Source: Deltaproteobacteria bacterium
GTDB taxonomy: Bacteria; Myxococcota_A; UBA9160; UBA6930
Direction of reading: 5' to 3'
NCBI GenBank assembly: GCA_016875395.1
Contig: VGRF01000003.1
Location: 62,001 to 126,000, forward strand
Length of the DNA: 64,000 nucleotides
The notes below the pieces were generated by a model. The model saw nothing but the letters and a program-made list of their open reading frames with translations. It had not been told where the DNA came from and made no database searches. This document shows, one piece after another, positions 32,247 through 45,094 of this stretch. Both the position numbers and the translations under genes were made by a program. Every line of letters begins with the position of its first letter. The stretch's first letter is position 1.

Positions 32247-34694
32247 TTAGAGCCGAACGCGCAGCTGCAGCAGGATCTCGCGACCGAGCGATGTCGTGGT
32301 CACGCGATCTTGGAGGCCGCCCGGGACCGGCGCGATCGCGCCGGGGCGGGAGCCTTCGCTGAACGCGTAGGTCTTGTCGCCGAGGTTCTTGCCGACCACG
32401 CCAATCTCCCAGCGGCCCTCCTCCGTGTAGAGGCGGATCGCTGCGTCGACGAGAGCGAACGCGTCCTGCTCGAATGCGTTCGGACGCCCCTCGAGCGGGT
32501 AGCCGCTGCTGTACCTCACATCGCTACTGAACCCGACGCGCCAGCCATTGCCCGCATCGAGGTCGTAGGAGGTGCCGACGTAGAAGGCGACGTCGGCACT
32601 GCGCTCGCGCGGATAGCCGTTCAGATCCTGGCCGTCGACCTGAATGAACTGCTTCGTGTAGTCGGCGTCGGTGAGCGCGAAGGCGCCCCTGAAGGTCAGG
32701 CCCTCGACCGGCGTCATCCAGTGGAAGTCGAGCTCGAAACCCTTGGTCGTCAACTCGCTCGCGTTGAACGTGAAGAACTGGATCGCGGTCGAATTGAACT
32801 GCTGTACTTGAAGGTCCTCATACCGGTAGTGGAAGACCGTCGCCGATAGCCGCAGGCTGTTGTCGAAGAGGTTGCTCTTGAGTCCCGCCTCACCGCCCTT
32901 CGCGGTCTCCGAGTCGTAGATCAGGGCTCCGGGGAAGTTGCACTGGCCCGTCACCGGATTCACGGGAGCTGGCGGACAGGTGTTCAAGCCGCTGTTGGGC
33001 AGAACGCTGTTGTCGATGCCGCCCGACTTGAAGCCCTGCTTGTAGGCGCCGTAGACGCTCACCTCGTCAGTGATCGTCCAGTTGAGGGCGACCTCGGGTG
33101 ACCAGTTGTCGTCGTCGAACTCGAGTCCGTCAGAGATGCTGAAGCCACTCGGACGGAATCCGATGGACGCCAAGAACGCGTGCATGTACGGAATGTCGAT
33201 GCGCCCTTGCTTGCTCTCATCCGTGTACCGGACGCCCGCCGTCAGCTCGAGATCGTCCGTGATGTCCCAATAGCCGGCGACGTAAGCGGAGTACACGCGC
33301 GTATCGAGGTAGTGATTCTTGTTGTAGTCGTAGCCGTTGCCGGTGGCGGGATCGCGCCCGTCCGGCAGAAAGCGCGCGGGGAAGATCGCCGGCAGCGCCG
33401 GGGACAAGGCCACGTTCACGGCGTACTGGTATGCCTCGAACACCTGCTCGACGTCCTGCAGGAAGAAGCCTGCCTGGAAGTTGACCGGGAAGTCGAAGTC
33501 GCTCGACAGCCGGAGCTCCTGGGTGATGCCCTTGTAGATGTTGCGGTGCAGGCCGTTGTAGAAGCCGGCAGGCGTCGAGCCATTGGTCGGGCTGCAGTAG
33601 CAATAGATGTCGAGGTCGCGGTGATCGAGGTTCAGGTAGCCGGTGATCGAAGTCAGATTCAGGCCGTCGGTCAGGCCCCAGTTCAGCTCGAGGGACGTGA
33701 GCCACGTGTCCTGATCGAGGAACGGAACGCCATCGTCGCCGCCGTAGGGAAGGCCGATCGCTTGCTTCGGTGTCACGTCGGAGATCGCAAAGTTCCCGTT
33801 GAACTTGCAGTCCTCACTGAAGTTCGTGAAGACACCACCGAAGCCGGAGTTCGTGCGCTGCTGCGCTCCATTGGCGCCAAGGCAGCGCGATTCCGTGATT
33901 CCGTTCGAGCCGTTGTTCTGGTACTTCGAGAAATTCAGCTTGAAGCGCGCGGTGAGGTTGTCGAGCGGATCCCACACGACCGTGAGGCGCGCGTTCGCCG
34001 ACTCATCGCCGCGCCAGTGGTGCTTCGCGGCGGTCGACAGGTTTTCGCGCAGCTTGTCGGCTTTGCTCCAGCCCGCCGCGAGGCGCACTCCGAGCGTGTC
34101 GGTGACCGGGGTTGAGACGATCGCCTCGGTGTAGAGCTGGGAGTAGCCGAACTCGTAGCCCGTCATCAGCTCGACCTCGAGCTCCTCGCCGGGATCCTTC
34201 GTGCGCACCGAGACCACGCCAGCGGTCGCGCTCTTTCCGAAGTAGAGGCTCTGCGGGCCTTTCAGGACCTCGAGCTGCGCCATGTCGAGATAGGCGTTGT
34301 GGATGAGCCGGCCGATGTTGCCGACGACGCCGTCCACGTTGATCGCGACGGATTGATCGAAGGCAGCGCTGATCGAGCTCGAGCCGACGCCGCGGAGGTA
34401 GAGGTTCGAGCCGTTGCCCGAGTTGCCCTGAACGATCTGGAAGTTTGGGACGAGCTTTGCAGCCTCTTGAAGGTTCTGGACGTTGTAGCGGTCGAGGTCC
34501 ATCTCCGTGAACGCCGCGACCGTCACCGGCACGTCCTGAAGCGTCTCTTCCTTCTGCCGCGCGGTCACCATGATCTCTTCGACGCCCGAGTCGCGGTCGG
34601 CAGGTGCCGCCGTGGGCGCCGCATCTTGCGCGAATGCGGGGAGGGCGATCGCCCACACGAGGGCGGCGATCCCAAACCTGAAGTGCTTGGCCAC
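32247..34694 (-). CDS. TonB-dependent outer-membrane receptor
   Basis: An 815-residue TonB-dependent receptor. The signal peptide ends ALPAFA-QDAA near residue 22. A TonB-box-like VEEIMVTARQKEE precedes the plug domain (VPVTVAAFTEMDL, YLRGVGSSS, LEVLKGPQSLYFGKSATAGVVSV). The barrel ends in a strand LLQLRVRL rather than the common aromatic F/Y/W. GTG 34694 has GAAGGAG six bases upstream. The gene stands alone between a terminator and a hairpin. Its GC content looks lower (about 60% in places) than that of its neighbours. The substrate is unknown. Confidence 0.93.
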   Translation of the reverse strand: MAKHFRFGIAALVWAIALPAFAQDAAPTAAPADRDSGVEEIMVTARQKEETLQDVPVTVAAFTEMDLDRYNVQNLQEAAKLVPNFQIVQGNSGNGSNLYLRGVGSSSISAAFDQSVAINVDGVVGNIGRLIHNAYLDMAQLEVLKGPQSLYFGKSATAGVVSVRTKDPGEELEVELMTGYEFGYSQLYTEAIVSTPVTDTLGVRLAAGWSKADKLRENLSTAAKHHWRGDESANARLTVVWDPLDNLTARFKLNFSKYQNNGSNGITESRCLGANGAQQRTNSGFGGVFTNFSEDCKFNGNFAISDVTPKQAIGLPYGGDDGVPFLDQDTWLTSLELNWGLTDGLNLTSITGYLNLDHRDLDIYCYCSPTNGSTPAGFYNGLHRNIYKGITQELRLSSDFDFPVNFQAGFFLQDVEQVFEAYQYAVNVALSPALPAIFPARFLPDGRDPATGNGYDYNKNHYLDTRVYSAYVAGYWDITDDLELTAGVRYTDESKQGRIDIPYMHAFLASIGFRPSGFSISDGLEFDDDNWSPEVALNWTITDEVSVYGAYKQGFKSGGIDNSVLPNSGLNTCPPAPVNPVTGQCNFPGALIYDSETAKGGEAGLKSNLFDNSLRLSATVFHYRYEDLQVQQFNSTAIQFFTFNASELTTKGFELDFHWMTPVEGLTFRGAFALTDADYTKQFIQVDGQDLNGYPRERSADVAFYVGTSYDLDAGNGWRVGFSSDVRYSSGYPLEGRPNAFEQDAFALVDAAIRLYTEEGRWEIGVVGKNLGDKTYAFSEGSRPGAIAPVPGGLQDRVTTTSLGREILLQLRVRL

Positions 34695-35048: not shown

Positions 35049-38000
35049 TCAGCGCTGACCTCGCCCGCCCGCGAGCCAGCGAGAAGCGCGCGGGCTCCAC
35101 TCGAGCCAGTCCCGCACGTTCTCCCCATCCACCTTGACGCGCAGGCGGAGGAACGCGCCCTTCGCGGTGTAGTCGGCCTGGGAGAACTCGTCGTCTTCGA
35201 AGCCGATCACGTTGTATCCGACGCTCGCCCAGACGTTGCGGTAGAGGCGGCGGCCGAGGCTCGCGCCCACCGAGTAGTGGCCATCGGTCGCGCGGTCGGA
35301 TTCGATCTGACGCGCGCGGGCGTGGAAGGCGATGTCCCAGCCCTTCGCGAAGTCCTGGCGCGCCTCGATGCCGAACAGGTGGCCGAGCGAGTCGTACGTC
35401 GCACCGTCGATGCGCTCCTTTACCCATTTCGCGGAGTACTGGAGCGCGATCTGCGTGCGCTCGTCGCGCGTGTAGTTGAGCTTCAGGTGGTTCACGACCC
35501 GGTCGCCGCGCAGGCCGGAGCCCGACGTGGTGGACAGGCCGTGCTCGAACTCGAGCTGCTCGAGCAGGATCCAGCGCGTGTCGAGGGGCCGATAGGCGAG
35601 CGAGAGGCGCGCCGCGTAGGTGTCCTCCTCGGTGGGCGCGGGGCCGGAGCGCTCGGCGCTGAACACCTCCACGTTCGCGGAGTACGAGGTGCGCTCGTGC
35701 TCGCGCAGCGCGCCGAGCATGAGGTTCCAGCCGTCCTCGATCTCGCCGCGGCGCGTCTCGACGCGCGTCGTGATCGCGGTCGGACCGTGGCTGTAGCCGG
35801 CGCCGATCGAGATCGCGGTGTAGTCGTCGTCCGCCGGGCCTGAGAAGGTGGGGACGTCGGGGTCGAAGGCGGGCGTGCTTCCGCCCGAGATCGTCTGCGA
35901 GCGGTCGATCGAGAGATCGAAGCCCCAGCGCTCGAACAGGTTCCAGTGCTGCGCGATGCCGAGGTTCGCGTACGTGCGCGGGCCGTACTCGCCGAGGGTG
36001 CTCGCTGTCGGAGTGGCGCCCAGGCTCGAGGTCGCCGACGCACCGGCCGCGCCTTGGGTGGGAAGACCGCCGCGGCCGAGGCTGAGCGCGACCTGCCCGC
36101 CCTCCCAAGGCGTGACGTTCGCTCCGACGCGCGTGTCCTGCCCGCGGCGCGTGTCGCCGAACGTGATCTCGTGCTGCGCGAAGAGCGTGAGCCAGTCGGT
36201 GAGCTTGTAGTCCGCGCCCGCGCCGACGCGGTCGGCGTAGTCCCCGTGCGGTCCCTCGCTGCCGAAGCCGACCTCGCTGCCGCCGCGCAGCGTGAGCTTG
36301 TCGCCGAACAGCTGATAGTGGCCGCCCAGCAACAGCTGCCCCGTGCTCTCGCCCGTCGCGGGAGCGGAGTCGCGCACGTAGCGCGCGCCGGCGTGCACTC
36401 CGCGGCGGCCCCCGTCGTCCCACTTCATCAGCGACTCCGCGATCTGGCGGTCGTCGTTCGTCGCGAGGTTCTGCTCGTGGAAGCTGCTCGTCTCGAACGT
36501 CCAGCGCTCGCGGAAGCGCCAGCGCAGATCGGCGCCGACGCGGCGCGCGCCTTGGTCGATCGCCGAGAGCTGCCCGAGGCCGAAGCCGTCCTGTTGTTCG
36601 CGTGCGTACGCCTCGAGCTCGAGGCTCTCGCTGCGATGCTCCGCAGACACGAGCCACGCAAGCGCGCGCTCGGAGCTCGTGAAGGTCGTGCTGTCGCTTC
36701 CCGCCCACTCCGCGCGCAGCGTGTTCGCCTCGTCCCATTCATAGGTGAGGTCCACGCCGACGAGATCGCCCTTCTGGGCGCCGCGCCCTTCGTGGATGCC
36801 GGTCGCGCCGATCTCGAGCGCACCTCCGAGGAAGAGGCCCGCGATGCGGCCGCCGCCGGAGATCGCATCGCCGGGGCCGTCCACCTCGTACTCGATGACG
36901 ATCAGCACCGGGTTGAGCTGCGCGTCGCGGCTCGGCACCGGCGAGCGGAAGTGGAGCGTGCCGCTGTACGGATCGAGGTCGTAGTCGATCTGCGCCGTCT
37001 GCGGCCTCACGTCGAGCACGCGGCCGGGGCGGAAGCGGTCGCGCACTTCGATGCGCACGCGATCGCTGCCCACGAGCACCGGCGACTGCGAGAGGCGGTA
37101 GAGGCCCGAGGTGCCGTTGCCGCGAATCTCGTCGCGCGCGAAGGACTGGCCGGTGTCGCTCGCGAAGCCGCTGAAGCGCAGCTTCTCGCCGTAGTACTCG
37201 CTCTTCAGACCCGTGACGACCCGCTCGTAGCGCGAGAGGTCGTTCCCCGAGAGCGCCGTCTCGGCATCGCCGTAGAGCGCGTAGAAGCGGTCGCGCTGCA
37301 CCTTCAAGAAGTAGCCGTTCGCGGTGGGCGCTTCGTAGCGCTGCTCGGTGGCGTCGCCGTAGAGCGCGAAGTGCTCCTCGGTGTCGAGCGTGCTCCGCAG
37401 CCTCTCGCCGGGCGCAGTGCGCTCTGCGTCGCTGTCGTAGGCCGCGGTGACCTGCCAGTCGCCGCGCACGGTGCCGGTCGCGAACAGCGCGGCGCGGCCC
37501 TGCTGGTCGGAGGCGTCGACCTTCGCCGCGCGGCGCGTGCCGTCGTCGCCCGAGTTGTCGCCGAAGCCGAGCTCGCCGGTGCCGAGCGCGACGAGCGTGA
37601 ACTCGCGGCGGCCAGGCGAGAGCCACCCTTCGATCTCTTCGCGGCGCTCGTCCGCGAGATCGACCGTGAGTGCGAAGCGTCCCGTGGTCGTCGTGGGCTC
37701 GAGCTCGATGCGCGCGATGCCGCCCTTCCCCACCACGAACTCGGTTGCGCCGAGATTCGGCACCGCGAGCTTGCGTTCGCGCGCGCGCTCCACCGACTCC
37801 TTCGCGCGATGCGGCGCCGCCACCTCGAGCCTCCCGCTCATGCCCTCGCGCACCGGCTGGCCCCAGCGGTCGAACATTTTCAGCGCCACGACCGGCACGA
37901 TGCGGCCATCGGCCACGAGCGTGGAGAGCGTCGGCATCAGCTCTGCGCTCACCGGCGGTCCCGAGGAGTGGAGCTTCTCCTGGATGCTCGCCACGACTTC

Positions 38001-40610
38001 GCCGCGCTCGTTCAGCAGCTCGGCGAGGAAGGTGTTGGGGCCTTCGCGAAGGCCGACGCCGCGCCAGCGCGAGATCGCGGTGGTCTGCGACGCGTTCTTC
38101 TGTGCGCCGTCGTAGCTGAGCGGCGGCACGAGCTCGCCGTTCAGGAACAGGCGCACGCTCAGATCCGGGTCGTGCTGGATGCCGACCTTCGTCGACGGAA
38201 TGCGCAGGATCGCGAGGGGGTTGGGATAAACCCAGCGGTTCTCAGGCTCCACCTGCGCGAGCCACGCTGCTCCGAACGCGGCGTCGGGCGGCAGCTCCTC
38301 GGGCTCCTTCGGCGGCGGAGGCGGCAACTCGTCCCAGGTCGCGGTCTGCGTGAACGAGCGCTTCGCGTCGAGCGCAGTCTTCACGACGGGCGTACGCACC
38401 GGCTCGCCGGTGCCGCGGCGTCCGCTCGCCATCGCGTTCACCTGCACGCTCGGGTCCACTGCGAGCATGAAGCGCAGCGTCACCTCTCCGCCTGGCGCCA
38501 CCTGCGCGGCGCGCACGGTCGGAACCGGCGCCGACGCGTCCACCTCGGCGCCGGCGCCGATCACCTCGAGCGATCCGGGCACGGGCTGCACGCCATCGGG
38601 CAGCATCACCACGCCGGAAATGCCCTTCAGCGTTGCGCCGCCGACGCTCACGCGCAGCTCGACGTGCTGCCGCTCGCCAGCCGGCGTGACCGTGAGCTGC
38701 TGATGCAAGCCGCGCGCGGTGGGCGCGCGCTCGAGGAAGAAGTCGGTGCGCCAGAGCGAGCCGCGCTGTGGCTCGACGAACTGCGAGTAGGCGCGGCCCG
38801 CGAAGCGCGAGCCCTCGCACGCGGCGGGCGTGAGACCGTCGGGCAGCGTCTGCATGTCGAGCTGCGCGACGTGCGTGTCCGCGCTCACGAGCGGGAAGTG
38901 GAAGCGGCCGAGCTCGTCCGTGACGACGCTCGTGCCGTCTTCGAGGAAGATGCGCACGCCCGCGACACCCTTGTGCGCGACGTCGCGCGGATCGGCGCAG
39001 CTGCCTTCGAGCACGCGGCCCACGAGCGTGGCGCGCTCGCTGAGCAGATCCGCGACGACGAGCATCGTCGCGCGCGCGGCGTTCGAGGAGAGGATGCCGG
39101 CGCGCACGATCGCCTCGTTCACGGCCTTGCCGCCGCGCACGCCCGCACCGAGGCGCGCGACGTAGCGGACCTCCACCTGTGCGCCGGCCGCGAGCACGCC
39201 GAGCGGAATCGAGAGCGTGCGGCCGTCGGCCGTGACCGCGGGATCCGGCGCGGGCAGGCCGCCGATGCGCAGCGAGCCGCGCTCGAAGCGGAAGCCGGGC
39301 GGGAGGCGGTCTTCGATGAACGCGGGCTGGCCGGCGCTGCCGTTCGGGGCGCCCGCGAGAAGCGTGTAGGGGACGAACTCACCCGGTCCCGCGGTGGCGC
39401 GACCGGCGCGCTTCACCAGCGTGAATGCACCGCTCGGATTCGCGGTGTCGACGGGCACGTCGACCGTCACGATCGGGCCGATCGGGACGGGGAAGTCGTT
39501 GCCGCGCGAGCCGGGCCCTAACACATAGGGCGCGCCGGGAAGCAGCTGCAGCGCGGCGTCGGGAACGCTGGATGGGAACGTGTGCGTCGCGGGCGGCACG
39601 ACTTGAAGGCGGTACGTGCCCGGCGCGACGAGGGGGAAACGGAAGCCGCCCGGCGGGAAGGCGTAGTTGGTGCCGCCGGAGTCCATGACGACTCCGCCCG
39701 AGCTGACGGTGGACGGGAACGTGGACACGCCGTCGTCGCCGAAGACGGCGGCGGGAAGGCCGGTGCCCGAGTCGATCAGCGTGATCTGCGCGCCGTTCAC
39801 GGGTGCGCCGGTCTGCGAGTCGAAGACGACGCCGAGCGGATCCACGAGGACTCCGGCGCTCGTGCTGTCGGCGGCGTCGGCCGGATCGCGATAGGTCGCG
39901 ACCGAGCTGTCGCCCGAGGCGACGGAGAGCACGCAATCTCCGGAAACGGCGGGCGGCGGCCCGCTCATCAGATACCCGACGAACACGCCCGTGTTCGGGC
40001 CCGTCTCCGCCGCGCGCACGACTTCGCTGTCGCCCGCGAGCTGAGAGTCGACGGTGACGAGCACGGACTCCGCGACCAGCGGATCGAGGTTCTGGTCGGC
40101 GTCCGAAACGCGAACGAAGAACGCCTCGCCCTGGTGGTAGGCGCCTCCCCCTAACAAATCGACCGGCGCGCCGAGATTGATCGGCGCGCCTAGGAGATCC
40201 GTGGGGTTCGGCGATGCCACGAACGGGCCGGCGAGCGTGCCGCTCGTGCTGCACATCGCGGCGCCGACGTTCGTCGCGACCGCGCCCAGGTAGCCGGGCG
40301 CGTAGTGAAGGAACTGGGTCGTCGAGGGAGTGCGGATCGTCGTCGTGACGATCGTGTCGGTGTTGGAGAGCACCGCGCTGGGCACGCCGCCGGGCGGCGT
40401 GAACACGCCCTGCGCGGTGTTGGAGATCGGCGTGCCCGGGGGCGTCTGCGCATGGCCGGCGAGCGCGAACAGCGCGATCGCCAGCCACGCGCAGATCCAG
40501 CTTCCGGCGCGCGAACGCACGAAGCCCGCAGCGGGCGCCGCGCGGAGTCGCGAAGACTCCGCGCGGGCCCGCCGGGGCCCATGCATCGGGTTCGGAAGCT
40601 GAGCGCTCAC
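35049..40610 (-). CDS. Giant outer-membrane protein with DUF11/SdrD-like repeats and a C-terminal barrel
   Basis: An 1853-residue exported protein. A signal peptide (WLAIALFALAGHAQ, about residues 39-53) is followed by Ig-like regions: TVDVPVDTANPSGAFTLVKRAGRATAGPG and later a DUF11-type domain (VPYTLLAGAPN to VEVRYVARLG). A carboxypeptidase-regulatory/SdrD-like domain then shows GVAGVRIFLEDGTSVVTDELGRFHFPLV. From about residue 1090 to the end the pattern is alternating amphipathic strands with repeated YGD motifs (FALYGDATEQ, FYALYGDAETAL) and many aromatic girdles, as in large barrels; the last strand region is LRVKVDGENVRDWLEW. Function unknown; a surface anchor, porin or secretion barrel for the small proteins upstream is plausible. 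GTG 40610 lacks a clear binding site, so the start is uncertain. Confidence 0.85.
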   Translation of the reverse strand: MSAQLPNPMHGPRRARAESSRLRAAPAAGFVRSRAGSWICAWLAIALFALAGHAQTPPGTPISNTAQGVFTPPGGVPSAVLSNTDTIVTTTIRTPSTTQFLHYAPGYLGAVATNVGAAMCSTSGTLAGPFVASPNPTDLLGAPINLGAPVDLLGGGAYHQGEAFFVRVSDADQNLDPLVAESVLVTVDSQLAGDSEVVRAAETGPNTGVFVGYLMSGPPPAVSGDCVLSVASGDSSVATYRDPADAADSTSAGVLVDPLGVVFDSQTGAPVNGAQITLIDSGTGLPAAVFGDDGVSTFPSTVSSGGVVMDSGGTNYAFPPGGFRFPLVAPGTYRLQVVPPATHTFPSSVPDAALQLLPGAPYVLGPGSRGNDFPVPIGPIVTVDVPVDTANPSGAFTLVKRAGRATAGPGEFVPYTLLAGAPNGSAGQPAFIEDRLPPGFRFERGSLRIGGLPAPDPAVTADGRTLSIPLGVLAAGAQVEVRYVARLGAGVRGGKAVNEAIVRAGILSSNAARATMLVVADLLSERATLVGRVLEGSCADPRDVAHKGVAGVRIFLEDGTSVVTDELGRFHFPLVSADTHVAQLDMQTLPDGLTPAACEGSRFAGRAYSQFVEPQRGSLWRTDFFLERAPTARGLHQQLTVTPAGERQHVELRVSVGGATLKGISGVVMLPDGVQPVPGSLEVIGAGAEVDASAPVPTVRAAQVAPGGEVTLRFMLAVDPSVQVNAMASGRRGTGEPVRTPVVKTALDAKRSFTQTATWDELPPPPPKEPEELPPDAAFGAAWLAQVEPENRWVYPNPLAILRIPSTKVGIQHDPDLSVRLFLNGELVPPLSYDGAQKNASQTTAISRWRGVGLREGPNTFLAELLNERGEVVASIQEKLHSSGPPVSAELMPTLSTLVADGRIVPVVALKMFDRWGQPVREGMSGRLEVAAPHRAKESVERARERKLAVPNLGATEFVVGKGGIARIELEPTTTTGRFALTVDLADERREEIEGWLSPGRREFTLVALGTGELGFGDNSGDDGTRRAAKVDASDQQGRAALFATGTVRGDWQVTAAYDSDAERTAPGERLRSTLDTEEHFALYGDATEQRYEAPTANGYFLKVQRDRFYALYGDAETALSGNDLSRYERVVTGLKSEYYGEKLRFSGFASDTGQSFARDEIRGNGTSGLYRLSQSPVLVGSDRVRIEVRDRFRPGRVLDVRPQTAQIDYDLDPYSGTLHFRSPVPSRDAQLNPVLIVIEYEVDGPGDAISGGGRIAGLFLGGALEIGATGIHEGRGAQKGDLVGVDLTYEWDEANTLRAEWAGSDSTTFTSSERALAWLVSAEHRSESLELEAYAREQQDGFGLGQLSAIDQGARRVGADLRWRFRERWTFETSSFHEQNLATNDDRQIAESLMKWDDGGRRGVHAGARYVRDSAPATGESTGQLLLGGHYQLFGDKLTLRGGSEVGFGSEGPHGDYADRVGAGADYKLTDWLTLFAQHEITFGDTRRGQDTRVGANVTPWEGGQVALSLGRGGLPTQGAAGASATSSLGATPTASTLGEYGPRTYANLGIAQHWNLFERWGFDLSIDRSQTISGGSTPAFDPDVPTFSGPADDDYTAISIGAGYSHGPTAITTRVETRRGEIEDGWNLMLGALREHERTSYSANVEVFSAERSGPAPTEEDTYAARLSLAYRPLDTRWILLEQLEFEHGLSTTSGSGLRGDRVVNHLKLNYTRDERTQIALQYSAKWVKERIDGATYDSLGHLFGIEARQDFAKGWDIAFHARARQIESDRATDGHYSVGASLGRRLYRNVWASVGYNVIGFEDDEFSQADYTAKGAFLRLRVKVDGENVRDWLEWSPRASRWLAGGRGQR
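40539..40565. repeat. 11-bp-stem perfect inverted repeat within a coding region
   Basis: CGCGCGGAGTC pairs with GACTCCGCGCG around GCGAA. It lies in the signal-peptide-proximal codons of the 1853-residue gene, close to its start, and shares the GAAGACTC word with two intergenic hairpins. It could affect translation of the giant gene. Confidence 0.45.
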
Positions 40611-40616
40611 GAGTCG

Positions 40617-41724
40617 CTACTGAATGACGACTCGGAAGCGCACCGTGGCCTGCGACGTCGAGCACGAACTCGCCCTCGTCGTCGGCCGCCGCGTTGGTCA
40701 GCGGCGTCGCAGCGCCGCCGTAGAGGTTCGGCGCCGTGACCTGAATGCCCGCGAGAGGGCCATAGCCATTCAAGTCGAAGTCGACCGTGCCGTTCGCGAT
40801 CTCCGAGGCCAGGCTGTCGCTCACCGCCACGTTCGTGGCGGTCGCGGTGGCGGTACCCGCATTCGAGATCGTGATCGTGTACTCGACCGTCGCGCCGGGG
40901 ATCGCCTTCGGGTTGACGCCGAGGTTGATCGGGTCGCTGATCACGACCGAGGCCTTGGCGACGGTGATCGACGCCGTCTGCACCTGGTACGCGCCGGCAT
41001 CGCTGTGGAGGCCGTCGTTCGCCACGTCGGCGAAGCCGCCGAGATCCGCGAACACGATGTCGACACCCGCCGTGTCCGCGCCCGCGGAGTTCGTGACGAC
41101 CGCGCCGAGACCGGCGGCGCCGCCCGCGCGGACCTGCGCGCTGAGCGTGATCGCCGAGACATCGCCATCCACCCGCCCGACCGGGACGCTGCGAACGACC
41201 CAGACGGTGACGTCGGCGTCTTCAACGAGCTCGTCGATGAACGTCGCGGTGTCGGCCAAAGGCTCGTAGATGTCGTCGCCGTCGTCGACCACGACGGTCG
41301 TTCCCGTCATGTCGAAGTCGTCCGGGCCGACGACGAACGGATCCGTTCCGTTCGTAGCGGTCAGCACGTAGTCCTGCGTCGAGTTACCCGTGTTGGTGAC
41401 GGTGAACTCGAGGACTTCGTTGACACCGTTCACCGGGACGCCCGTGTAGGTGCCGGCCACTTCGTTGACGATGTGGCTGATGCTGTTGTCGACGAGGAAC
41501 GTGGTGTCGGAGCCGTTGTTGACGCCCGGATTGCTGTTGCCGGCGCCCGGCGCCGATTCGATCACCGGCTGCGCTGTGGCGCTGATGTCGTAGGACACCG
41601 TCGCGCGGTTCGCGATGGACGTACCTGAGTCCGTCCCGATGGCCTGCGCACCCTGCGCAGCCACGATCAAGAGCGCGGCCGAGAAGATCCCGGCGCGCGC
41701 GTTGTTTCTCCAAACCCGTTGCAT
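40617..41724 (-). CDS. Secreted DUF11-type Ig-like protein, probable frameshift near its end
   Basis: A secreted protein of about 368 residues after repair. The signal peptide is AGIFSAALLIVAAQGAQA-IG, then a DUF11-like series: TSIANRATVSYDI, VLEFTVTNTGNSTQDYVLTA, ATVEYTITISNAGTATATATNVAVSD. The frame runs past EGEFVLDVA into shadow sequence; dropping one base near 40655 (GCAGGCC) instead gives ATVRFRVVIQ and a TAG at 40617-40619. That ending matches the C termini of the sister genes. AGGAGAAAG precedes ATG 41724. The gene sits seven bases before the giant barrel gene. Confidence 0.75.
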
Positions 41725-41778
41725 GGTCTTTCTCCTGGTTGTTGGGAACGAAGGAACGAGCGAGAGATCCACGCGCCG

Positions 41779-42279
41779 CTACTCGAGCTGCGCGAGGAAG
41801 CGCACCGACCGCTGCTCGGCCGGAGCGAGGGGCGCCGCGAAGACCCAGCGCACGTGCGTGTAATCGCTGGCGAGGGCAGGACGGCGCGTGCCGTCCTCGT
41901 TCGCGACGGTCAGTTTCTCGGGGCGATCGAAGCGGAAGCCGCCGTCGACCGAGAACAGCACCTGTGCGCCCGCGTCCGTCGCGGTGCCGTCCAGGTACGT
42001 CACCTCGGCAGGAATCGGATCCGTGACGACCACGCGATCCGCGTTCTGCTGCGAGATGTTCTTCGCCTCGATCGTGTAGGCGACGACGTCGCCCGGCACG
42101 ACCTCGGCCGCCGGCACGTACAGCTCGGCCGCCGTGCCGTCGGGGTTCTGCGCGAGCACGCGCTTCTCGACCTTCGCCGAGAGCGAGATGCTCCCGGCCT
42201 CGGCGAGTGCGCCCGTCGCGCAAAGCAGCGCGGCGGCCATCGCCGCGCCGAGTCGCATTCGATTCGTGTGAAGAGTCAT
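41779..42279 (-). CDS. Secreted DUF11-type protein
   Basis: A 166-residue exported protein: a signal peptide (GAAMAAALLCATGALA-EA) and one DUF11-like Ig domain (VPAAEVVPGDVVAYTIEAKNISQQNADRVVVTDPIPAEVTYLDGTA), ending RSVRFLAQLE. GGGAGGAAACCC gives an excellent ribosome binding site for ATG 42279. Part of a five-gene minus-strand run. DUF11 domains occur in surface and adhesion proteins. Confidence 0.88.
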   Translation of the reverse strand: MTLHTNRMRLGAAMAAALLCATGALAEAGSISLSAKVEKRVLAQNPDGTAAELYVPAAEVVPGDVVAYTIEAKNISQQNADRVVVTDPIPAEVTYLDGTATDAGAQVLFSVDGGFRFDRPEKLTVANEDGTRRPALASDYTHVRWVFAAPLAPAEQRSVRFLAQLE

Positions 42280-42291
42280 TGGGTTTCCTCC

Positions 42292-43302
42292 CTAATCAAT
42301 CGTGACTTGGAACGTGATCACTTCTGCTGGCCCCCCGGCCGGCAGCGAACCGAGGCCGACGCTGATCGCGCCGGCCGTGGTGAATCCGAAGTCCGCCTCG
42401 TCGACGGGCGAGTCGGCCGCGTCGGTGAGCGGAACCGCGTTGCGCATCATCGAGCCCGGCACGTAGGTCGTGTTCGCCGGGATGGCGTCGGTGAGCGTGG
42501 TCGCGTCGGCGTTGCCGACTCCTGCGACCGTGACGGTGAGCGTGTAGGTGATCGTCGCGCCCGGAACCGGCTGCGCGCCGCCGAACGGGTCTGCGATCGC
42601 CGAGGTCTTCGCGATCGTGAGCGCGACGGCGGAGACCTGATAAGTGCCCTGATCCGAGTCGTCGCCGCCGCTCGTGCCGACGATCGCGTCCGTGCCGAGC
42701 TCGCCGGCGCCGGGGAACACGTCGCCGGGCAAGCCCGTGCCCGTCGTCGACGCCGCGGCCAGGAGACTGTCGCCGAGGTCGCCGCTCACGAGCGGAGCGG
42801 GGATGTCGCTCAGCGCGAACACGACGATGTCGTCCTGCGCGGCCAGATTCGCGTCGAGGACCGGGTCGTTCACGCCGTTGCTGTAGAGCGTGTCGACGCC
42901 GACGTCGTAAACGCCGTTCGCGTTGGCGTCGAGGTAGATCGCCGCGAACACCGGATTGAAGTCGTCGCCCGCGAGACCGTTGTTCACACTGAGCGCGAAC
43001 GCGTCGATGCCGTTGCCGGTGTTCGTGACGCGGTACGTGAGCACGCGCGCGCTCGACGGCGAGTTCACGAGCACGTTGCCGATCGAGAGCAGCGTCACGT
43101 CGACGTCGATCAACTCGGCGACGGTGATCGTGTTCGGCGTGCTGCTCGCCGACACCGGCGAGCCGCCCACGTCCGCGGTCACGGTGGCAGTGTTCACGAT
43201 GTCCGTGCCGGCTGCGGTGCCCAGCGCATGGACGGAGCTCGCAGTCGCGAGCACGCACACTGCGGCTCCGACTGCTCGCCTCAGACTCGCTAGTGACTTC
43301 AT
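42292..43302 (-). CDS. Secreted DUF11-type protein
   Basis: A 336-residue exported protein with the signal peptide VGAAVCVLATASSVHA-LG. The mature part has two Ig-like units: TDIVNTATVTADVGG with ARVLTYRVTNTGNGIDAFALSVNNG, and the DUF11 unit GATITYTLTVTVAGVGNADATTLTDAIPANTTYVPGS. The calcium-like Asp/Asn loop DANANGVYDVGVD resembles SdrD or dockerin-type sites. It ends EVITFQVTID. AGGAGG precedes ATG 43302. It is paralogous to the gene at 40617. Confidence 0.9.
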   Translation of the reverse strand: MKSLASLRRAVGAAVCVLATASSVHALGTAAGTDIVNTATVTADVGGSPVSASSTPNTITVAELIDVDVTLLSIGNVLVNSPSSARVLTYRVTNTGNGIDAFALSVNNGLAGDDFNPVFAAIYLDANANGVYDVGVDTLYSNGVNDPVLDANLAAQDDIVVFALSDIPAPLVSGDLGDSLLAAASTTGTGLPGDVFPGAGELGTDAIVGTSGGDDSDQGTYQVSAVALTIAKTSAIADPFGGAQPVPGATITYTLTVTVAGVGNADATTLTDAIPANTTYVPGSMMRNAVPLTDAADSPVDEADFGFTTAGAISVGLGSLPAGGPAEVITFQVTID

Positions 43303-43324
43303 CTCGAATCCTCCTGCTGTGTCT

Positions 43325-43624
43325 TCACTGCACACGCGCCTGGAAGCGCAGCTCGAAGCTCGGCGTGGCGCTCAGCGATGCGCCGGCGAGCGTCCCGCTC
43401 GGGCGCACGCGCGTTGCACGCGCTGCCGCGTCGCATCCGTCGGCGTCGCGCATCGGCGCGCATGTGAACGTGTTCGCGCCGCTGTCGAGCCCGACGTCGA
43501 AGTCGGGCTCGGCGGAGAAGAGCGCGGCGACGGCGACCAGCGCGCACGCAAGTGTCCGTGCTCTCGCGCAGAGCTCGCGCGAGCAAGCGCGGCCGCCTGC
43601 CACATTTGGGCTACGTAGATTCAC
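43325..43624 (-). CDS. Small secreted protein, first gene of the surface locus
   Basis: About 99 residues: a signal peptide (ARTLACALVAVAALFSA) followed by roughly 60 residues with two cysteines (TFTCAPMRDADGC) and the C-terminal strand SFELRFQARVQ, similar to the ends of the next three proteins. The start is uncertain: GTG 43624 and GTG 43603 are possible, the frame extends to TTG 43654, and none has a good binding site. The 192 bases upstream of it hold no gene. Confidence 0.6.
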   Translation of the reverse strand: MNLRSPNVAGGRACSRELCARARTLACALVAVAALFSAEPDFDVGLDSGANTFTCAPMRDADGCDAAARATRVRPSGTLAGASLSATPSFELRFQARVQ

Positions 43625-43846
43625 CCAGACGGTTTCGTCAGAACGGCAGAGCAATCAACCGGCAAAATGCCCAGGCGGCTCGCGCTCGAACCTCGCTTCA
43701 TGCACCGCGGTTGCGAAGACGCGCAGCCGATCCACGAAGGGCCGTCTCCACGAGGAGTTGCGCAGGCTGGTTGCCGCGCGGTGAGTGTGTTTCCGCCCGG
43801 GGCCCGCGCGCACTGAGCTACCAGTCGCAATTCAAGGAGACGCGAG

Positions 43847-45094
43847 ATGGCGAACGGCGCGGCACCGGAGCCCGTGGTCGAGAGCAAGTACACGCGCAAG
43901 CTGCGCCCGAACACGCGCAAGTCGGAGCACGCAACGCGCGACGAAATCCGCCTGCTCTCGCCGGACTTCTACGCCGACCTTCATCCGCTCTGCACGTGGA
44001 TGCGCGCGCATGCGCCGGTCTACTGGGACGACGCGACCGGAATCTGGGGGATCGCTCGCTACGACGACATCATGACCGTCGCGCGCGAGTGGGAGACGTT
44101 CTGCTCCCGCGAGGGCTCGCGGCCGGACAGCTCGGTGCCGAGCATGATCAACTTCGATCCCCCGCAGCACACGCTGCGCCGCCGCATCATCTCGGCAGGC
44201 TTTACGCATCGCCGCGTGCAGGACCACGAGGTGTTCCTGCGCCGCAAAGTGCGCGAGTTGCTCGATGCGGCCGCGGCGAAGGGCCGCTGCGACTTCGTGC
44301 GCGACGTCGCGACGCCGCTGCCGATGTACATGATCGGCGAGTTGATGGGCCTGCCCGAAGCGGACCACGACACGCTGCTGCATTGGTCCGACTTGTTCGC
44401 GACGGGCAACGCTGAGATCGGCCTGCAGGTGCGCGACGCGGTGATCGCCTACGCCGAGTACATCCAGCGCGTGATCGCGCAGCGCCGCGGCGGGAGCGCG
44501 GAAGATCTCGTGAGCCTGGCGGTGAACGCCGTCGTCGACGGCGAGCGGCTCAGCGAGGACGATCTGATCTTCGAGACGATGCTCGTGCTCGTGGGCGGCG
44601 ACGAGACCACGCGCCACGTGATCAGCGGCGGCCTCGCGGCGCTGCTCGAGCATCCCGCGCAGCTCGCGAAGCTGCGCGCGAATCCGGCGCTCGTGCCGAG
44701 CGCCGTCGAGGAAATGCTGCGCTGGGTGACGCCGATCCAGAACATGAACCGCACCGCGACGCGCGACGCCGAGCTGCGCGGCCAAAAGATCCGCGCGGGC
44801 GACCGCATGCTGCTGCTGTATCCGTCCGGCAATCGCGACGAGGCGGTGTTCCGTGACCCGTTCGCGTTCGACATCGAGCGCACGCCCAACGACCACGTCG
44901 CGTTCGGCGGCTTCGGCCGCCACCACTGCCTCGGCGCACAGCTCGCGCGCCTCGAGCTGCGCGTGCTCTTCGAAGAACTGCTCGCGCGCTGGAGCGACGT
45001 GCGGCTGGCGGAGCCCGCACAGCCGCTGCGCCGGCGCCGCGGCACCTTCGTGCTCGGGATCGAGGAGATGCCGGTCGTGGTGGCGCGCAGCTGA
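43847..45094 (+). CDS. Cytochrome P450
   Basis: A 415-residue P450 with the I-helix LVGGDETTRHVISGG, the K-helix EEMLRWVTP and the haem loop FGGFGRHHCLG (Cys361). These features resemble the sterol and fatty-acid P450 group of actinobacteria and proteobacteria (CYP125/CYP142 neighbourhood), a placement made by eye. ATG 43847 follows CAAGGAGACG. No ferredoxin gene is adjacent. Confidence 0.93.
   Translation: MANGAAPEPVVESKYTRKLRPNTRKSEHATRDEIRLLSPDFYADLHPLCTWMRAHAPVYWDDATGIWGIARYDDIMTVAREWETFCSREGSRPDSSVPSMINFDPPQHTLRRRIISAGFTHRRVQDHEVFLRRKVRELLDAAAAKGRCDFVRDVATPLPMYMIGELMGLPEADHDTLLHWSDLFATGNAEIGLQVRDAVIAYAEYIQRVIAQRRGGSAEDLVSLAVNAVVDGERLSEDDLIFETMLVLVGGDETTRHVISGGLAALLEHPAQLAKLRANPALVPSAVEEMLRWVTPIQNMNRTATRDAELRGQKIRAGDRMLLLYPSGNRDEAVFRDPFAFDIERTPNDHVAFGGFGRHHCLGAQLARLELRVLFEELLARWSDVRLAEPAQPLRRRRGTFVLGIEEMPVVVARS

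Follow-up and report, generated by a model that had tools for sequence, protein, structure and literature searches.

A recurring bacterial gene set encodes DUF11 proteins together with a probable large outer-membrane barrel

Bacterial and archaeal cell surfaces commonly bear DUF11 proteins. To our knowledge, little has been established on how diderm bacteria anchor them. The hook protein GhlA of Litorilinea forms a filament built of DUF11 repeats and is a single protein of 6596 residues and 49 domains lacking an N-terminal signal peptide (PMC13319060), and DUF11 proteins have been linked to cell aggregation in methanogens (PMC10787695). The five-gene operon described here (g1 to g5) shares with the grappling-hook proteins GhlA and GhpA (Aureispira) the presence of Ig-like DUF11 domains in large exported proteins. 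In contrast to GhlA, however, its DUF11 domains are spread over small subunits and a stalk fused to a probable outer-membrane barrel. Classical (type Va) autotransporters, the C-terminal domain of which has about 12 strands, resemble g5 in joining an N-terminal passenger-like part to a C-terminal barrel in one polypeptide. The g5 protein differs from them in its barrel region of about 750 residues and in lacking a match to the autotransporter domain; additionally, the stalk and barrel of the operon are sometimes separate genes and are accompanied by several accessory subunits. Chaperone-usher pili offer an analogy only: their Ig-like subunits are secreted, have genes next to that of a large outer-membrane barrel and carry an N-terminal segment following the signal peptide. 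Unlike those pili, the operon matches no usher or chaperone family, and its barrel protein itself bears the stalk.

The locus lies in a metagenome-assembled genome, the 96 contigs of which total 4.51 Mb. The window, that is, the whole stretch of 64,000 nucleotides that was analysed (G000:C3:62001-126000), carries g1, g2, g3, g4 and g5 in that order on its minus strand, from 43654 down to 35049, and the tandem of five minus-strand reading frames described in an earlier note on this DNA is therefore present. Likely starts are at 43302 (g2), 42279 (g3), 41724 (g4) and 40610 (g5), and three of the five reading frames (g2, g3 and g5) are intact. The intact five-gene operons of Myxococcota of the same class encode proteins of about 600 to 1030 (g1), 340 (g2), 165 (g3), 370 (g4) and 1850 (g5) residues. 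All three DUF11 matches of the window's genome fall within the operon. A scan of the genome contigs with a single protein found nothing, and a search for sigma-70-like promoters found none. Directly downstream of g5 lies a TonB-dependent-receptor-like gene (32247-34694), the place of which is taken in loci L021 and L022 by an acyl-CoA-dehydrogenase-like gene.

Two genes of the window copy are damaged. The g1 remnant (43325..43654, minus strand) preserves the C-terminal 70 or so residues, ending LRFQARVQ, of a DUF11 protein of about 600 residues, the 5' part of the gene being missing. In a profile search it matched the g1 profile at positions 560-630 only, of about 630 (E 1.5e-7), and thus corresponds to the 3' end of a gene that elsewhere has about 600-1030 codons; g1 is present at full length in L021, L022, L024 and L070. 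The previous reading of g1 as a complete small secreted protein is therefore abandoned. The hydrophobic stretch first taken for its signal peptide aligns with an internal part of the intact relatives, so that the assignment of signal peptides to all five proteins does not hold for g1. About 190 bases separate the remnant from a divergent cytochrome-P450-like gene just upstream (43847-45094), and a rearrangement at this junction may have been the source of the 5' loss. The second damaged gene, g4 (40617..41724, minus strand), encodes a secreted DUF11 protein (27.3 bits against TIGR01451; cut-off 24), paralogous to g2 and carrying the N-terminal shared segment described below. A frame break close to its 3' end puts VRFRVVIQ, the counterpart of the C-terminus of its relatives, and the stop at 40619-40617 into another frame; in the stretch immediately preceding the last strand, the window copy falls short of its relatives in length. 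Intact g4 is found in L021, L022, L024, L069 and L070. What the window carries is a damaged version of a gene set conserved among bacteria and, since g1 is a remnant and g4 is frame-broken, the system in this genome, as assembled, is probably impaired.

The g2 gene (42292..43302, minus strand) encodes a secreted protein that bears the N-terminal shared segment and, at its C-terminus, a DUF11 domain (39.3 bits against TIGR01451; cut-off 24) ending ITFQVTID. Its likely ATG at 43302 stands behind an aggagg site, the start given by the ORF tool being 43335, and its family alignment (A5) takes in two phyla. The g3 gene (41779..42279, minus strand) encodes a secreted single-domain DUF11 protein of 166 residues, ending VRFLAQLE, which scores 33.8 bits against DUF11 and 42.4 bits against TIGR01451 (cut-off 24). 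It is the most widely conserved accessory gene, with relatives in Myxococcota, Alpha- and Gammaproteobacteria and Cyanobacteria. Matches of g3 to the PDB entries 2cn2 and 2cn3 were short and partial and were not accepted.

The 1853-residue g5 protein (35049..40610, minus strand) comprises, in order, a signal peptide, the N-terminal shared segment, a carboxypeptidase-regulatory-like/DUF11/SdrD-like stalk, Ig-like domains and a C-terminal predicted outer-membrane barrel. The g5 profile shows two well-kept blocks, one at about 380-600 (DUF11/SdrD-like) and one from 950-1320 onward (pre-barrel and barrel). Searched against Pfam, the window copy gave only weak carboxypeptidase-regulatory-like matches below the cut-off, and it has no TIGR01451 match; among its relatives, L021 reaches 28.7 bits against TIGR01451 and L025 83.6 bits against Pfam DUF11. 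The DUF11 and SdrD-like domains that the earlier note had read in g5 are clear in relative L025 (DUF11 and SdrD_B). The PDB chain 9ifr_A matches the stalk (E 5e-7), a match that shows a DUF11-like domain of solved fold in the stalk and nothing more. The pre-barrel Ig-like domains (37590..38195, minus strand; residues 806-1007 or so) are the best-modelled part of the protein, with pLDDT mostly 67-88 and one dip to 42, and show Foldseek similarity to parts of BgaA and BuGH2A.

The C-terminal domain of g5 (35070..37430, minus strand; residues about 1061-1847) is probably an outer-membrane barrel. Strong beta alternation runs across the region, and PF13505 matches occur in 6 of 18 g5 homologues (above the cut-off in L095 and L031), with none in the window copy. 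In a low-confidence AlphaFold model, DSSP assigns about 28 long strands from residue 1250 or thereabouts on, followed by a C-terminal helix, and Foldseek returned weak matches to porins and other barrels, with SlpA weakly in the list. The model of this barrel construct is poor (mean pLDDT 43, the barrel mostly below 50). Its alignment had five rows, because the input consisted of the window and related-locus sequences only, and this probably limited the model. Structure prediction, which had been proposed as a check on all five proteins, was carried out for the barrel construct and for g2, the model of which is also poor (mean pLDDT 41) and usable only for the strand predicted at the very C-terminus. 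With AlphaFold models of this quality, strand number and pore are not fixed. The large barrel that the earlier note saw in g5 therefore draws on the homologues, the strand alternation and the weak porin matches, with a poor model and an unmatched window copy on the other side.

Searches for known families of outer-membrane barrel and exporter gave the following results. No Pfam match to an autotransporter domain was obtained for g5 or its homologues, one of the 18 showing a weak YadA_anchor match (E 0.0032). A TonB plug or TonB-dependent barrel was matched neither in g5 nor in the Roseovarius barrel annotated as such. No usher was matched in the g5 homologues, no chaperone family among the five genes and no DUF560 barrel of the type XI secretion system (T11SS, Slam) in g5 or its homologues. 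No SprA chain appeared among the PDB sequence matches at E <= 1, the g5 model being of too low confidence for a comparison of folds.

The stalk and barrel blocks form one polypeptide in the window family and in giant proteins of up to about 5150 residues. In Cyanobacteria, some Proteobacteria, some Myxococcota and probably also Deinococcus they are adjacent separate genes, as observed in Roseovarius, G055 (L031), G043 (L033), Eleftheria and both cyanobacteria described below. The giant DUF11-OmpA-barrel proteins of Myxococcota and Proteobacteria, annotated as OmpA family, TonB-dependent receptor or SdrD B-like, possess stalk and barrel blocks homologous to those of g5 and in the same order; unlike the window family, which is without OmpA, the giants have an OmpA-like domain, many more repeats or both. 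This OmpA-like (peptidoglycan-binding) domain is situated between the stalk block and the barrel in the giants and also precedes the barrel in the barrel gene of L031. Giants of about 3760-5150 residues ending in the same barrel family were observed at L030 (3290-18727, with an OmpA-like motif between stalk block and barrel), L029 (4223-19570) and L027 (7841-19126, cut by the contig end). A profile search of the genomes with giants found no g2/g4-type genes with the N-terminal segment.

The order g1-g2-g3-g4-g5 is kept in G004 (L021), G009 (L022), G051 (L024, where g5 is cut by the contig end) and G062 (L070, where g5 is also cut, with its remainder on L044). In G066 the genes g2-g5 are present and g1 is absent; the G065 contig begins inside g2 and carries g2-g5; and G011 has g3, an 881-residue g2/g4-like gene and g5. 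In G072 (L067 2866-9043), g3 is downstream of g5 and not upstream. The named barrel-carrying relatives are Myxococcota/Deltaproteobacteria metagenome-assembled genomes. Strong g3 matches (E below 1e-30) were obtained in 9 of the 377 genomes of the phylum, and all nine also have a g5-specific match. The latter occurs in 12 genomes, at a contig edge in two of them (G039 and G068); in G060, which has a g5-like gene, g3 was not detected. With no correction for phylogeny, the hypergeometric probability of the g3/g5 overlap arising by chance is about 6e-16 when genomes are counted and about 2e-11 when genera are counted.

Further cases were traced from a tblastn search of g5 against plasmids (Novosphingobium, Acinetobacter and Pacificitalea) and by using g2 and g3 as queries (Synechococcus NIES-970, Kovacikia and Deinococcus aquaticus). 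A plasmid of Novosphingobium sp. THN1 carries g2, g3, g4 (two pieces) and g5 (pieces), then a g1-like DUF11 gene; in this copy (L094 7592-13699), neither g4 nor g5 is contained in a single reading frame, each being spread over several. Beyond Novosphingobium, reduced gene sets occur in four further phyla or classes. Acinetobacter haemolyticus has genes resembling g3 and, in broken form, g2/g4, together with g5, OmpA and one more DUF11 gene, while Pacificitalea has g3, an 880-residue gene and g5. The order in Synechococcus NIES-970 and Kovacikia is g3, a stalk gene, a barrel gene and a g1-like gene, with a 910-residue gene bearing the N-terminal segment ahead of g3 in NIES-970. The arrangement in Deinococcus aquaticus is looser, comprising a 939-residue g2/g4-like gene, a 921-residue gene (N-terminal segment and stalk block) and a 1678-residue gene with a weak barrel match. 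The synteny asked about in the earlier note is thus conserved as an operon order in Myxococcota relatives and recurs as a neighbourhood in other phyla. The recurring neighbourhood and the co-occurrence of g3 with g5 also support the suggested functional link of the barrel protein with the small DUF11 proteins. Recurrence of the gene set in several phyla suggests an undescribed multi-part surface fibre or adhesin. A full-text literature search found no paper on the g1-g5 operon. LH92_11085 of A. baumannii, described in a review as a Csu-type pilin, was rejected as a relative, and a T11SS cargo paper was set aside as a lead to DUF11 since almost all of its 'DUF11' matches are DUF1194.

A segment of about 44 residues directly after the signal peptide is common to g2, g4 and the g5 stalk (consensus GTxAGTxIxNTAxVxY...SN). 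In the g5 of the window it covers residues 56-88 (40347..40445, minus strand) by the g2/g4-type profile (E 0.0035) and residues 56-99 by a g5-only profile. Across ten genomes, every gene recovered by the segment profile belongs to this operon (G065 has part of its g2 on another contig), and in 377 Myxococcota genomes all 22 matches, in 8 genomes, lie in the operon. The profile was built partly from loci that it finds, and for this reason it was split by sequence type. Built from g2/g4-type sequences alone, the profile picks up the N-terminus of g5 in 11 loci (E 2e-7 to 0.0035); a profile built from three Proteobacteria sequences finds Myxococcota members. Off target, a single weak multi-piece match was obtained among 637 reading frames, in the giant of L029.

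The C-terminal strand pattern to which attention had been drawn is present in g1-g3 of the window and, in another frame, in g4. A strict form of the pattern, set after inspection of the family, ends 33 of 43 accessory proteins versus 0 of 246 other complete reading frames in the collected loci, the sequences being related and not independent; the pattern is thus not due to chance. In the last strand of g2, positions -6, -4 and -2 are invariant and -5 and -3 variable over seven sequences. When the 93 8-mers of the final 100 residues are ranked by conservation, the last one comes 9th in g2 and 42nd in g3. Conservation at alternate positions fits a buried last strand of an Ig fold, which was the alternative that the earlier note itself had given, and its proposal of a recognition signal is not borne out by conservation confined to alternate positions or by the rank of the g3 8-mer. 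Most likely, the strand simply completes the terminal DUF11 domain, and the N-terminal segment is the better candidate for a docking element.

For comparison, 14 control loci with matches to DUF11 were taken from other Myxococcota, and profile searches of them yielded 11 DUF11 or g1-like proteins, one each in 11 loci. None of the 11, a small control set, has such a strand as its end. DUF11 proteins thus do not generally terminate in this way, which leaves some probability to a recognition role for the strand. Nine of the 11 end in hydrophobic-plus-basic tails like C-terminal sorting signals, as judged by eye, while those of L108 and L110 end otherwise; g1-g3 end at the strand, without a tail. 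The tails that by eye resemble MYXO-CTERM are those of L098, L099, L101, L102, L103, L105, L106, L107 and L109. A search of the window's genome with TIGR03901 (MYXO-CTERM) was uninformative, with no match in the controls either.

We estimate at roughly 0.58 the probability that the gene set encodes a multi-subunit DUF11 (Ig-like) cell-surface adhesin or fibre anchored in the outer membrane by a large barrel. The large predicted C-terminal outer-membrane beta-barrel of g5, to which the DUF11/SdrD-like stalk is fused, would provide the anchor. The g1-g4 proteins, as Sec-exported DUF11 subunits with no recognised sorting tail, would most likely associate with the stalk to give a composite adhesin or short fibre, and the segment of about 44 residues in g2, g4 and the stalk may serve as a docking or polymerisation element. 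The gene set with its synteny and homologies, the fusion and fission of stalk and barrel, and the restricted occurrence of the N-terminal segment are observed directly; barrel topology, surface location, physical association and adhesive role are what we infer. A loose cluster of ordinary DUF11 surface proteins, with an independent role for the barrel and common ends that reflect the fold only, would agree with the wide occurrence of DUF11 and with the C-terminal conservation. We nevertheless consider it the least probable of the readings, given the gene order and the fusion and fission of stalk and barrel kept across phyla, the tight co-occurrence of g3 with g5, the confinement of the N-terminal segment to the operon and the finding of DUF11 in the window's genome only there.

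As the earlier note suggested, the barrel might instead export or assemble the small DUF11 subunits, which would pass through it or be polymerised on it. In this usher-like reading, the recognition signal would be the C-terminal strand, the N-terminal segment or both. A predicted barrel far larger than those of classical autotransporters, a separate barrel gene beside stalk genes in several phyla, accessory proteins that end exactly at the strand and a segment common to g2/g4 and the stalk all speak for such a role. It is made distinctly unlikely by the conservation of the strand at alternate positions only, by the lack of usher, chaperone, TonB-plug and DUF560 family matches and by the lack of a pore model of usable confidence. 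The position of the OmpA domain ahead of the barrel in giants means that the stalk could be periplasmic. The stalk and accessory DUF11 proteins would then not form a surface fibre but act as braces from the peptidoglycan to a barrel, much like Deinococcus SlpA. The neighbouring OmpA gene of Acinetobacter and the weak appearance of SlpA in the Foldseek list would also point this way. This arrangement is more doubtful again, as the repeats of the giants extend over thousands of residues, which is long for a periplasmic span, the window family has no OmpA domain and DUF11 repeats elsewhere form external filaments (PMC13319060).

The anchored surface adhesin or fibre thus remains our preferred reading. 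A bolder form of it, which we regard as unlikely, would be an undescribed assembly system distributed over several phyla of diderms. Its very large outer-membrane barrel would anchor or export a DUF11 stalk, to which small DUF11 subunits would be added through the common N-terminal strand segment; such assembly would be analogous to, and not homologous with, donor-strand assembly of pili. The gene set, in tying DUF11 subunits to one family of large barrels, offers a testable hypothesis for their anchoring and assembly. Were the barrel also to export the subunits, this would constitute a new route of secretion or fibre assembly.
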